Assembly (NCBI RefSeq): GCF_900099925.1
Contig: NZ_FNDE01000010.1
Coordinates: 1,812-65,811 of the forward strand
DNA length: 64,000 bases
DNA from: Aneurinibacillus thermoaerophilus
GTDB taxonomy: Bacteria; Bacillota; Bacilli; Aneurinibacillales; Aneurinibacillaceae
Reading direction: 5' to 3'
The notes beneath the pieces were generated by a model, which was not told the origin of the DNA, ran no database searches, and saw nothing but the letters and a program-made list of their open reading frames with translations. The translations under genes were made by a program, and so were the position numbers. Shown here piece by piece: positions 52,499-58,220 of the stretch (positions are counted from its first letter, which is position 1; each line of letters begins with the position of its first letter).

Positions 52499-52879
52499 CT
52501 AAAATGAACCTGATTTCGTGCTTTTTTGCAGTACAAACTCTTCGATGACATGGCGCACGCCTTCTTCATTGTTGGAGCGCGTTACATAATCGGCTTTTTG
52601 TTTAATAAACTCCGGCGCGTTGCCCATCGCGACGCCGAGACCGGCGACTTTAATCAAATCGATGTCATTATAGCTATCCCCGATGCCGATGATTTTCGAA
52701 CGGTCAATGCCAAACATTTTTGCCAGATGAAGAATCGCTTGGCCTTTGCTGGCTTCGGGGTGCATAACTTCAAGAAAATATGGCTTTGATTTCGTAATAT
52801 ATGCCGCCTCCCCAAATTCTTCGTTTAGCTCTTTTGCTAGTGCATCAAGTGCTTCAGGTTCATCATAGTATAACAGCAT
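52499..52879 (-). pseudogene. 3' half of a Cof-type HAD phosphatase
   Basis: The remaining 126 residues match the end of Cof-type sugar phosphatases: YFLEVMHPEASKGQAILHLA, KIIGIGDSYNDIDLIKVAGL (motif 4 DD), GVAMGNAPEFIKQKADYVTR and NNEEGVRHVIEEFVL. The nucleophile DxDGT motif and the first half are missing, and the upstream sequence on the minus strand is AT-rich and non-coding. 5'-truncated, probably non-functional. Confidence 0.85.
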
Positions 52880-54861: not shown

Positions 54862-55008
54862 TTTTTCAACGTTTCGTTGTTTCGTTATGTTGGCGGCATG
54901 ATCGCTTCCGTATTAGTGAGTCTATTAAGGGAGAAAATATGGATGTATAGCATGCTTTTATTCGCTTTCATTATAGGCTGGAAGTTCGAATGTCCCTTTG
55001 ATGTTTAG
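54862..55008 (+). pseudogene. Remnant of an MFS transporter
   Basis: NFFNVSLFRYVGGMIASVLV, then SLLREKIWMYSMLLFAFIIG and WKF, ending TAG. The F-x-x-x-R-Y-x-G-G-M-I-A-S motif is usual in a late helix of drug-efflux MFS proteins. It joins directly to the PEP-domain remnant, so at least two deletions met here. Confidence 0.45.
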
Positions 55009-55689
55009 AACGGTTTCTCCGCAATCCGTTGTAAACGAGAGATCCTCATCAATACGTAGTTCTGAAACAACGATGTTACTGAAATCCGGGCAGGGATTTT
55101 CAGCGCGCGTAAAGTAAATCGTATGATTCACGTGAACTGAGCCCAAGCGACTAATCGCTGCTAAATCTCTGCCAACGTTTCCCGTAATGTTAGAGATACT
55201 GACAATAAACTGGATATAGCCTACCGCTCTCACGCGTTGAAGGCTCCCGCTACAATTCGCTTCCTTTTGGTCAAAATGAGGGATATGTTCAGCGGTTTGT
55301 GTACAAGTATCAATAATGCATTCGATCCCCTCTGTGTTAAAAGCAATGTCAGGAGCAAAAGAAGGGGCAAGCCTGAATCCTTGTGGTAGCACAATATTGC
55401 AACTAAAAGGGACAGACCGGTTACATATGGTTTCATCGTAAGGAGCCGATGTTTGTTGGCTGCTCACTACCTTTGTACGTCTTTCAGATAATAGTTGCTT
55501 TTGAATATTTGTTGGCATTTCCTCGTCCAGTTCTTTTTGCTCTTCCAGGTTTGCCACTAAGCATGTTGCGACTTTTTTTGGCGTTGATGTACTATGTTTA
55601 TTTTTATATGTAGCAGATTGAGCTTTGTATATAATCGATTGATTTTTATATATATTGTATTGAGCCTGGGAAATAATATAGGAACGCAT
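54958..55689 (-). CDS. Unknown protein with heptad N-terminal repeats (243 aa)
   Basis: I do not recognise this protein. The start at ATG 55689 has GAAAGGA upstream; the ATG at 55698 is too close to it. The N terminus has three near-repeats of seven residues, NIYKNQS-IIYKAQS-ATYKNKH. The main part (about 90-240) is strand-rich with six spaced Cys (ETICNRSVPFSCNIVLPQ, IECIIDTCTQTAE, EANCSGSL) and a VGYIQFIVSISNIT segment, a layout seen in spore outer-layer and DUF3794-like proteins. Divergent from two ATP-grasp genes, with which it may work (inference). Confidence 0.65.
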   Translation of the reverse strand: MRSYIISQAQYNIYKNQSIIYKAQSATYKNKHSTSTPKKVATCLVANLEEQKELDEEMPTNIQKQLLSERRTKVVSSQQTSAPYDETICNRSVPFSCNIVLPQGFRLAPSFAPDIAFNTEGIECIIDTCTQTAEHIPHFDQKEANCSGSLQRVRAVGYIQFIVSISNITGNVGRDLAAISRLGSVHVNHTIYFTRAENPCPDFSNIVVSELRIDEDLSFTTDCGETVLNIKGTFELPAYNESE

Positions 55690-55959
55690 ACGATCCATCC
55701 TTTCTTTTTCATACTGAACGGTGTTATCACATGTTATCTTTAGGTTAGTTTTGCAACACCCTCACACTGTATAGAGAATGCAAAAAAGAATGGATTGGTG
55801 ACGACAAACGTGGAGAAATTTATATCCGTCGCTTTCAAATACAGTTCATTCACCTATAACCAACCCGTTTTGTACGTGCATAAGATACATTGTATTTGTA
55901 AACACAATGAGACAATGTGCGGTTCTACTTTAATGAGAGAAAAAGAGGTGGTTGGCTGT

Positions 55960-57171
55960 ATGAGAACGATGGTATTTATAGGAACAAGCAAGTCCGGTTC
56001 GAGTCGGGAAGCGATTCGGGCGGCCGAACGGCTTGGTTTTTATACCGTTCTCTTTACGAGGCGTAAGCTAAATCTGGAGCAACGAGCGGAATTTTCCGAT
56101 GTCCACGAATTAATATCGATTGATTTAGATGATGTACCATCAATGAGAGAAAAGATCAAACAGCTACAAAAACAAGGAAAAATCATTGAGGCGATTGTTA
56201 GTTTTGTTGATGGACTTGTTTATACGGCCGCGGTTCTTTCGGAGGAATTTTGTCATACAGACCTGTCCAAGGAAGCCATTTTAAAAATGGAAGATAAAAT
56301 ACAAACACGCAGCGCTTTGCAAAAGACTCCTTTTAATATGAATTATGCGATATATAAGCAAGGATCTTTATCTTTTTTTATAGAAGAAAACGAGCTGACA
56401 TTCCCGCTCATTGTAAAGGCTCCCCATTCAGCTGGTTCGAAAGACGTTTTAAAAGTTGACCGCAAATCTGAGTTTGAATCTTGTGTAAACAAATTAAAGC
56501 AAAAGTATCCAGGAAGCCCTATTTTAGTTGAGGAATATATTGATGGACCGCAATATTTGGTAGAAACGTTGGTTTACCAAAATAAGGTGAACATTGTAGC
56601 TATTATTGAACAAGAAATTTCAAAAGAGCAACGCTTTATTGTAACAGGCTATTCTTTGCTTGCAAAAGTAGAGGAGCATTTATATGAAAGTCTTTCGCGT
56701 GCTGTTATATCAATCATTCGAATGTTAGGGATGAAAAACGGGGCATGCCATCTGGAATTAAAATTCCACAAAAACCAATGGAAACTGATAGAAGCGAATC
56801 CCAGAATATCCGGGGGAGCCATGAACAAAATGATTGAGGTTGCTTATGGCATTAATTTAGCTGAACAAATTATTAAAATAGCTATTGGAGAAGCGCCGTC
56901 CTTACAAAAAACATATAAGAAATTCGTTTTTACTCAGTATATTACGTTAGCTTCGTCAGGAGAACTGCAATTGGTAACCGGAAGAAACAGAGCTTGGCGA
57001 TATGAAGGGGTTGATGATGTATATATTAAGCCAAAGCGGGGAACGTATTTGCATCCTCCATTATCGATGGGGCACCGTTATGCCTATGTCATGGCTTCGT
57101 CTTCTACAAAGGAAGAAGCCAAAACAATCGCGAAAGCCGCAGCCAAGGAAATCCACTTTCATCTTTATTGA
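55960..57171 (+). CDS. ATP-grasp ligase-like protein
   Basis: A 403-residue ATP-grasp enzyme of the carboxylate-amine ligase type. N-terminal Rossmann-like part TMVFIGTSKSGSSREAIRAA, nucleotide domain FPLIVKAPHSAGSKDVLKVD and ILVEEYIDGPQYLVETLV. The metal-binding end is GACHLELKFHKNQWKLIEAN with PRISGGAMNKMIE (the E-x-N-x-R motif). I start at ATG 55960 because the longer frame from 55795 has no ribosome binding site and an odd composition. Such enzymes make dipeptides or modify peptides. The next gene, 21 bp away, is a second ATP-grasp protein. Confidence 0.9.
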   Translation: MRTMVFIGTSKSGSSREAIRAAERLGFYTVLFTRRKLNLEQRAEFSDVHELISIDLDDVPSMREKIKQLQKQGKIIEAIVSFVDGLVYTAAVLSEEFCHTDLSKEAILKMEDKIQTRSALQKTPFNMNYAIYKQGSLSFFIEENELTFPLIVKAPHSAGSKDVLKVDRKSEFESCVNKLKQKYPGSPILVEEYIDGPQYLVETLVYQNKVNIVAIIEQEISKEQRFIVTGYSLLAKVEEHLYESLSRAVISIIRMLGMKNGACHLELKFHKNQWKLIEANPRISGGAMNKMIEVAYGINLAEQIIKIAIGEAPSLQKTYKKFVFTQYITLASSGELQLVTGRNRAWRYEGVDDVYIKPKRGTYLHPPLSMGHRYAYVMASSSTKEEAKTIAKAAAKEIHFHLY

Positions 57172-57192
57172 TTTTAAGAAAGGAGGGGGAAC

Positions 57193-58220
57193 ATGACGAC
57201 AATCGGCATGCTCCATTATCGTAAACACCCGGAGAAAGTTCTAAAAGCATATGCATTTGCTGCTGTTGCCAAGGCGGAAGGGGTTGATTTTTTCTATTTT
57301 ACCCCCGGAAAAGTGAATATGGAAAAGAAAACGATTCTAGGGTATGCATTGGAAAAAGGAGATGGATAGAAAGAAAAATGCCATTTCCTGATGTGATTTA
57401 TAATGCAGGCAGTCCTTTGACTGAGAAGGCGTATGATATTCATGAAAAACTTTCTGAACAAATTCCTTTTACAAGTCACTCGCTAGGCAGTAAAACGAGT
57501 GTGTATGAACGAGTCAAGAAAAATGGCCAATTTTCTCAATATCTTCTTCCTTTTATGATGATAAAGAGTATGAAAGATGTTTTTGAATTTTTGGCTGCGC
57601 ATCAAAATGTAGTCATAAAGCCTGTATCCGGTCATAAAGGGATTGGGGTTATCTTTATAGAAGAAAATAATGGCACGTACACTGTTATTAATCAGGACGA
57701 TACTTCAACTTATAGTAAACAAACGCTTCGGGAATTGTTAAATCCGTTGGTTATAGATGAAGAATATTTGATTCAGCGTTATGTTTCATCAAAAACAAAA
57801 TATGGAAGCGCCTATGATTTTCGCCTGCATGTTCAGAAAAACGGAGAAGGCAAATGGGTGATTACAAACATTTATCCACGAATCGCCAATCCGGGAAAAA
57901 TTGTAACTAATCTAAATAGCGGGGGCGCCATCTCGATGCTGGAATCTTTTTTAATTCAGGAGTTTGAGGAGGAGTCCTACAATGTTAAACGATATCTCGA
58001 ACAATTTTCCCTCGTTTTTGCCGAACATATGGATAAAATCTATGACGAATCTTTTGATGAACTGGGCATTGATGTAGGATTAGACGCCAACCGGAAGATA
58101 TGGATTTACGAGGTGAATTGGCGTCCCGGAGTTCCTCCCACGTTTGATTTAGAGCTGGATGTAGCCAGAAATACCATTCATTATGCCGTATATTTGTCGA
58201 ACAAATTCCACGGACGTTAA
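57193..58220 (+). pseudogene. YheC/YheD-type ATP-grasp protein, frameshifted
   Basis: Starts MTTIGMLHYRKHPEKVLKAY after AAAGGAGGGGGA and reads to LEKGDG, TAG at about 57367. The homology continues in another frame as RWIERKMPFPDVIYNAGSPL, typical of YheC/YheD (spore coat-associated) proteins, and runs to 58220. ATP-grasp motifs follow (VVIKPVSGHKGIGVIFIEEN, DFRLHVQKNGEGKWV, WIYEVNWRPGVPPTF). One short indel near 57360-57375 explains the break. An internal ATG at 57378 could still give the 280-residue ATP-grasp domain. It forms an operon with the preceding gene. Confidence 0.85.

Follow-up and report, generated by a model that had tools for sequence, protein, structure and literature searches.

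YheC and YheD have long been known as sporulation proteins, and we know of no function for these two coat proteins. Ddl, an ATP-grasp enzyme, makes a dipeptide, which is then coupled by a MurF-type ligase. The L-amino acid ligases, such as BL00235 (3vot), BacD/YwfE (3vmm, 3wnz) and RizA (4wd3), also have the ATP-grasp fold. In the available parts of two reports, Bacillus subtilis yheC and yheD were placed in the sigma-E regulon with stimulation by SpoIIID (PMC517825), and YheD was described as strongly self-associating and covering the spore (PMC7911427). Cyanophycin synthetases (CphA, CphA2) carry an ATP-grasp part and a Mur half, as described in the part of PMC11915815 available to us, and a role of cyanophycin synthetase in Clostridium perfringens spore assembly was cited in PMC5532821. 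In Bacillus horikoshii, the same paper described three genes in tandem, annotated by RAST as cyanophycin synthetases, in which the residues for aspartate were kept and those for arginine were lacking (PMC5532821). These tandem genes may belong to the group of YheC/YheD-type (YheC/D) and MurF-like proteins considered below.

We analysed a stretch of 64,000 nucleotides from Aneurinibacillus thermoaerophilus (the window). An unassigned gene had been described in the first-pass annotation as lying back to back with two ATP-grasp genes, and the listing of open reading frames bore out this layout, with a minus-strand frame of 246 codons divergent from two plus-strand ATP-grasp genes. The features of the locus were as follows.

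54958..55698, minus strand: gene of a 246-aa Cys-containing protein (243 aa if the start is Met4 at 55689)
55165..55416, minus strand: weak CryBP1-like stretch, residues 95-178 (PF07029, below the Pfam cut-off)
55603..55665, minus strand: three 7-residue repeats, AQYNIYK NQSIIYK AQSATYK, residues 12-32 (shuffle test)
55772..55800, minus strand: weak sigma-K-like site upstream of the 246-aa gene (matrix score 10.0)
55862..55887, plus strand: strong sigma-K-like promoter (AACC ... CATAAGATA) upstream of ATPG1 (exact pattern and matrix score 15.2)
55960..57171, plus strand: ATPG1, a 403-aa ATP-grasp enzyme with L-amino-acid-ligase fold and LAL_C2 (Pfam, predicted structure, alignment)
57193..58220, plus strand: YheC/YheD-type ATP-grasp gene with a one-base frameshift (PF14398; segments 57193-57369 and 57378-58220)

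The GC content was ~38–42% across 52.5–61.5 kb of the window and 45–50% at 48–53 kb. This drop fits a foreign origin, suggesting that the ~9 kb low-GC stretch around the enzyme pair is an acquired region. The sequence of a 126-aa open reading frame on the minus strand at 52499-52879 suggests the C-terminal portion of a phosphatase of the HAD type; the gene, which borders the low-GC stretch, has probably been truncated.

Inspection of ATPG1 (ATG at 55960, stop at 57171) agreed with its earlier description as an ATP-grasp ligase gene, since it matched both ATP-grasp_4 (E = 4.6e-19) and LAL_C2 (E = 1.4e-19, 70.6 bits against a cut-off of 29.4). The structure was predicted with a mean pLDDT of 93.2. 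The L-amino acid ligase BL00235 was the closest structure (Z 39.3, rmsd 2.5 over 380) and was also ranked first by Foldseek; RizA (Z 33.5) and BacD/YwfE (Z 31) likewise scored high, alongside further ATP-grasp enzymes. It was found that residues E266, E278, N280 and R282 were invariant in 45 aligned homologues. From the roles of such residues in the superfamily, we take them to be catalytic, as the ATP/metal-binding Glu, the Glu-x-Asn and the substrate Arg. ATPG1 therefore resembles the L-amino acid ligases in its full-length ATP-grasp fold, its LAL_C2 domain and its conserved residues, and ATP-dependent dipeptide formation would be its predicted activity; the identity in the structural alignments was 15–22%. 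The NCBIfam model PRK02186 spanned residues 2-397 and was rejected, because the score of 127.6 was far below the cut-off of 625. ATPG1 was matched at E ≤ 1e-60 in 42 of 398 Bacilli genomes, 36 of which matched at E ≤ 1e-100; the six genomes matching at ~1e-61 look like a different family. Among the genomes listed, ATPG1 was absent from 6 congeners, 4 other members of the family and 4 other members of the order, so its occurrence is sporadic. Two further ATP-grasp genes, ~23–26% identical to ATPG1, were observed elsewhere in the genome (contig C84, L034 5429-11236), together with genes that read by eye as transporter-, aldolase- and regulator-like, among phage-type genes. This is possibly a dipeptide-type biosynthetic cluster on a prophage.

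The second ATP-grasp gene scored 211.8 bits against PF14398 (cut-off 26.8), with weak RimK and TTL similarity of the encoded protein. Its earlier assignment to the YheC/YheD type thus held, and its start had to be moved from 57378 to 57193. The first 58 codons lie in one frame, which is closed by a stop at 57367-57369, and the remainder lies in another frame, which is already open before 57378. The frame was therefore not intact, with a one-base shift between ~57340 and 57369, and programmed frameshifting was set aside, as no classical slippery heptamer was seen by eye at the junction. In relatives, the gene ran through the shift point in a single continuous frame. As the assembly consists of 103 contigs, the frameshift may be either genuine or an assembly error. 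The window gene was similar to B. subtilis YheC and YheD in its PF14398 domain and its sporulation context, as far as the available parts of PMC517825 and PMC7911427 describe the latter, but differed in being frameshifted and in lying beside a partner of the L-amino-acid-ligase type; elsewhere, YheC/D was fused to a MurF-like domain. For comparison with the linkage counts given below, there were only six YheC/D matches in the 3.66 Mb genome, in three places. One of these places, on contig C46 (L106 6710-12100), contained four YheC/D-type ATP-grasp genes in tandem.

To describe the surroundings of ATPG1 in other genomes, 50 loci were collected by scanning genomes with an alignment of three ATPG1 homologues, the window being excluded. 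They came mostly from Bacillales, with some Acholeplasmatales and Haloplasmataceae assemblies. The Bacillales genera among them are mostly spore formers. A second sample covered 20 of the 42 ATPG1-matching genomes, and 3 of its 20 loci repeated loci of the first. Profiles of YheC/D, MurF-like, CotZ and ATPG1 proteins were run on six-frame translations. YheC/D was found within 8 kb of ATPG1 in 45/50 loci (19/20 in the second sample), a MurF-like ligase in 29/50 (13/20) and CotZ in 19/50 (9/20); these counts are not independent events, because the sampled loci share ancestry, and their borderline labels lean towards the profiled families, because proteins from the same loci had served to build the profiles. 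YheC/D lay within 500 bp of ATPG1 in 38/50 loci (27 downstream on the same strand, 8 divergent and 3 upstream on the same strand), and with the window counted, 12/51 loci had none at this distance. At least one of the three families was present within 8 kb in 49/50 loci, and at loci L078 and L152 none of them was near ATPG1. The CotZ identity was borne out by Pfam in the 2 members tested. The single CotZ gene of our genome lies away from the window locus.

A single polypeptide combined YheC/D with a MurF-like domain in 7 of the 50 loci. Pfam analysis of one fusion revealed YheC/D and Mur domains, with the full Mur middle and C-terminal models covered. The best model for the MurF-like proteins was murF, yet the scores of 254.4, 234.5 and 278.7 bits were below its cut-off of 288.6, and the fused forms and that of our genome matched the model only from position ~66–73, that is, without the N-terminal domain. 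The MurF-like ligase of our genome (378 aa, on contig C59, unlinked to the window locus) was 43–45% identical to the fused Mur domains. It lies directly before a gene that reads by eye as a D-alanyl-D-alanine carboxypeptidase (L105 4082-5979), and several congeners have similar Mur copies. The combination is reminiscent of Ddl plus MurF in its proposed logic and in the best match of the Mur halves, and differs in the missed murF cut-off and the lack of the N-terminal domain. It likewise recalls cyanophycin synthetase, whose ATP-grasp and Mur ligase domains act on a single amino-acid polymer, as is proposed here. In contrast to cyanophycin synthetase, the ATP-grasp half of the fusion is YheC/D and the other half is MurF-like; the TIGR02068 scores of the L063 fusion and two Mur proteins were 67.1, 55.4 and 78.2 bits, respectively, against a cut-off of 850.

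Sporulation promoters, which had been put forward as a check, were searched with a sigma-K-like matrix of our own construction. The 51 ATPG1 upstream regions (50 loci and the window) scored higher than 510 control upstream regions from the same loci (Mann-Whitney p = 1.5e-10), and 12/51 reached the top-5% level of the controls, compared with 27/510 of the controls themselves. Against their own shuffles, the ATPG1 upstream regions had a mean score of 8.5 versus 4.5 (combined p = 2.5e-10); both p-values are optimistic, because the loci are related. The exact sigma-K-like –10 pattern was present in 11/51 ATPG1 upstream regions and 50/508 controls, so many loci are without a clear site. The window site was the best of all with a score of 15.2, which was reached by 0/510 controls and 0/100 shuffles (p floor 0.01). 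With a sigma-E matrix, no enrichment over the controls was observed in the ATPG1 upstream regions (p = 0.10; 0/51 in the top 5%), although yheC and yheD of B. subtilis are published as sigma-E genes. Unlike the L-amino acid ligases, ATPG1 is accompanied by YheC/D, MurF-like and CotZ neighbours and preceded by a sigma-K-like promoter. Spore-coat modification had been one of two settings suggested by the first-pass annotation, and the co-occurrence of ATPG1, YheC/D and CotZ in spore-forming Bacilli, together with this promoter, upheld that part of it.

Taken together, the enzyme pair beside coat genes and Mur-ligase relatives suggests a little-studied route for bringing peptide into spore coats. 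With moderate confidence, we propose that ATPG1 and YheC/D together form a module for amino-acid ligation that is specific to sporulation, works without the ribosome and either produces a coat peptide or attaches it. The proposal is based on computed results: the domains and the fold, the conservation of ATP-grasp residues, the conserved gene linkage and the enrichment of promoters. We infer the timing, substrate, product and order of steps as follows. ATPG1 would be made late in the mother cell from the sigma-K-like promoter, and would turn a small amino-acid substrate into an acyl phosphate at its carboxylate and join it to an amine, as in L-amino acid ligases. YheC/D at the forespore surface would then extend or transfer the ATPG1 product, in many species with the MurF-like ligase. 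What is deposited in the coat, the site of assembly of the Cys-rich CotZ-type proteins, would be either a polymer (peptide or isopeptide) or a peptide tag. More tentatively, an ATPG1-type enzyme, YheC/YheD and the MurF-like ligase, the last two sometimes fused, might build a ribosome-independent coat peptide polymer by an undescribed pathway in spore-forming Bacilli. In the genome studied here, the frameshift in YheC/D and the unlinked position of the MurF-like partner on contig C59 speak against the module.

The third gene of the locus had been regarded as a possible substrate of the two enzymes. Its open reading frame has 246 codons, and the earlier length of 243 aa applies if translation starts at Met4, which has the better-placed ribosome-binding site by eye. 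Eight cysteines were counted (residues 46, 92, 100, 127, 132, 149, 203 and 226), not six as previously given. The seven-residue N-terminal repeats are real: three copies occupy residues 12-32 with 3/7 columns identical, a regularity reached by 0/2000 shuffles of the whole protein and 2/20000 shuffles of its first 40 residues. Repeated Tyr-Lys motifs were also observed. The best Pfam match was CryBP1 (PF07029, E = 0.0088), and membership was rejected, because the score was 16.5 bits against a cut-off of 25 and only 1/5 members of the protein's own family matched even at E ≤ 1; a PF07029 search of 299 genomes gave zero matches, with its controls also at zero. Superoxide dismutase matches (E 0.16–0.23, with further weak rows over the same stretch) were taken as chance. 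The structure predicted for the protein alone had a mean pLDDT of 40, too low to be of use. At E ≤ 0.001, homologues were found in 4/398 Bacilli genomes including our own, with identities of 22–29%. An alignment of five sequences showed 12 invariant columns, including C127, C132, C203, P105, G107, F108 and R157. In 2 of the 3 other genomes, the domain was joined to an apparent repeat domain (read by eye), and one genome had two such genes; at L036 9200-12037, two tandem genes carry the domain followed by a repeat-rich C-terminal half. A plasmid search with the protein gave zero matches, and a search of viral contigs with the family alignment found zero relatives. The sigma-K-like site upstream of its gene was weak, as roughly 6–8% of control upstream regions reached its score of 10.0.

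Failure of the three genes to occur together in other genomes had been named beforehand as the refutation of the first reading. With profile and single-sequence searches of six-frame translations, no homologue of the 246-aa protein was found in the 50 loci or in the 20 of the second sample, and the copy in the window was the single hit when the window and the 50 loci were searched in the same way. The trio is thereby refuted as a unit, whereas the two enzymes are widely found together. The 246-aa protein is rare, and its link with the enzymes is one of position. The likeliest reading is that it stands on its own as a surface or coat-type protein and shares the intergenic region by chance; a role as enzyme substrate is possible but finds no support in the comparison of loci.

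The main rival to the ligation module is a modification of the coat in which both ATP-grasp enzymes would append amino acids to one of its proteins, acting like RimK, tubulin-tyrosine ligase or graspetide enzymes. The target would be the 246-aa protein here, and CotZ or another Cys-rich protein at other loci. We consider this unlikely. The frequency of CotZ near ATPG1, the weak similarity of YheC/D to RimK and TTL, and the Tyr-Lys motifs of the 246-aa protein are in its favour. So is a protein of 118 aa that contains 9 Cys as well as Tyr-Lys motifs (L033 8162-8518, and L045), matched no Pfam family and is encoded directly upstream of an ATPG1 59% identical to ours. Nevertheless, no candidate substrate was conserved across the ATPG1 loci and no single Cys-rich family occurred in most of them, the 246-aa protein being absent from the 50 loci and from the second sample as described above, and the fold of ATPG1 was nearest to that of enzymes joining free amino acids.

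A purely structural role in the coat, taken on by the enzymes with catalysis lost or irrelevant, is improbable. The strong self-association and spore coverage of YheD, in the part of PMC7911427 available, and the amplification of YheC/D in tandem arrays, four in a row on contig C46, would fit such a role. It is opposed by the YheC/D fusions, whose MurF-like domains span the whole of the Mur middle and C-terminal models. The invariance in 45 sequences of the four ATPG1 residues, presumed catalytic from their roles in the superfamily, also argues against it.

We likewise give little credence to a small soluble dipeptide or antibiotic, for which the linkage to spore genes would reflect sporulation regulation only. 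The nearest solved relatives of ATPG1 are indeed dipeptide ligases, including BacD and RizA, but no transporter or other biosynthetic family recurred beside ATPG1 in 51 loci, and with the enzyme families and CotZ set aside, the most frequent family was present in only 7/51. The other setting first suggested, a graspetide or amino-acid-tailing cluster with the 246-aa protein as substrate, is not supported. A graspetide or other RiPP with this protein as precursor was rejected because no conserved small precursor gene lies beside the ligase in the 50 and 20 loci and the 246-aa protein, of which just 3 further genomes among the 398 hold a homologue, is absent from every other ATPG1 locus examined.

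The interest of the locus therefore lies in the enzyme module and not in the trio as first described. No literature describing a coupling of YheC/YheD to amino-acid or MurF-like ligases was found in a search mostly outside subscription papers. The coupling of ATPG1, YheC/D and MurF-like ligases, even as fusions, makes it testable whether the coat contains peptide or isopeptide material dependent on these genes. Such a polymer, if real, would be a new spore-coat component, and the polymer pathway, if true, would give YheC and YheD their first chemistry.
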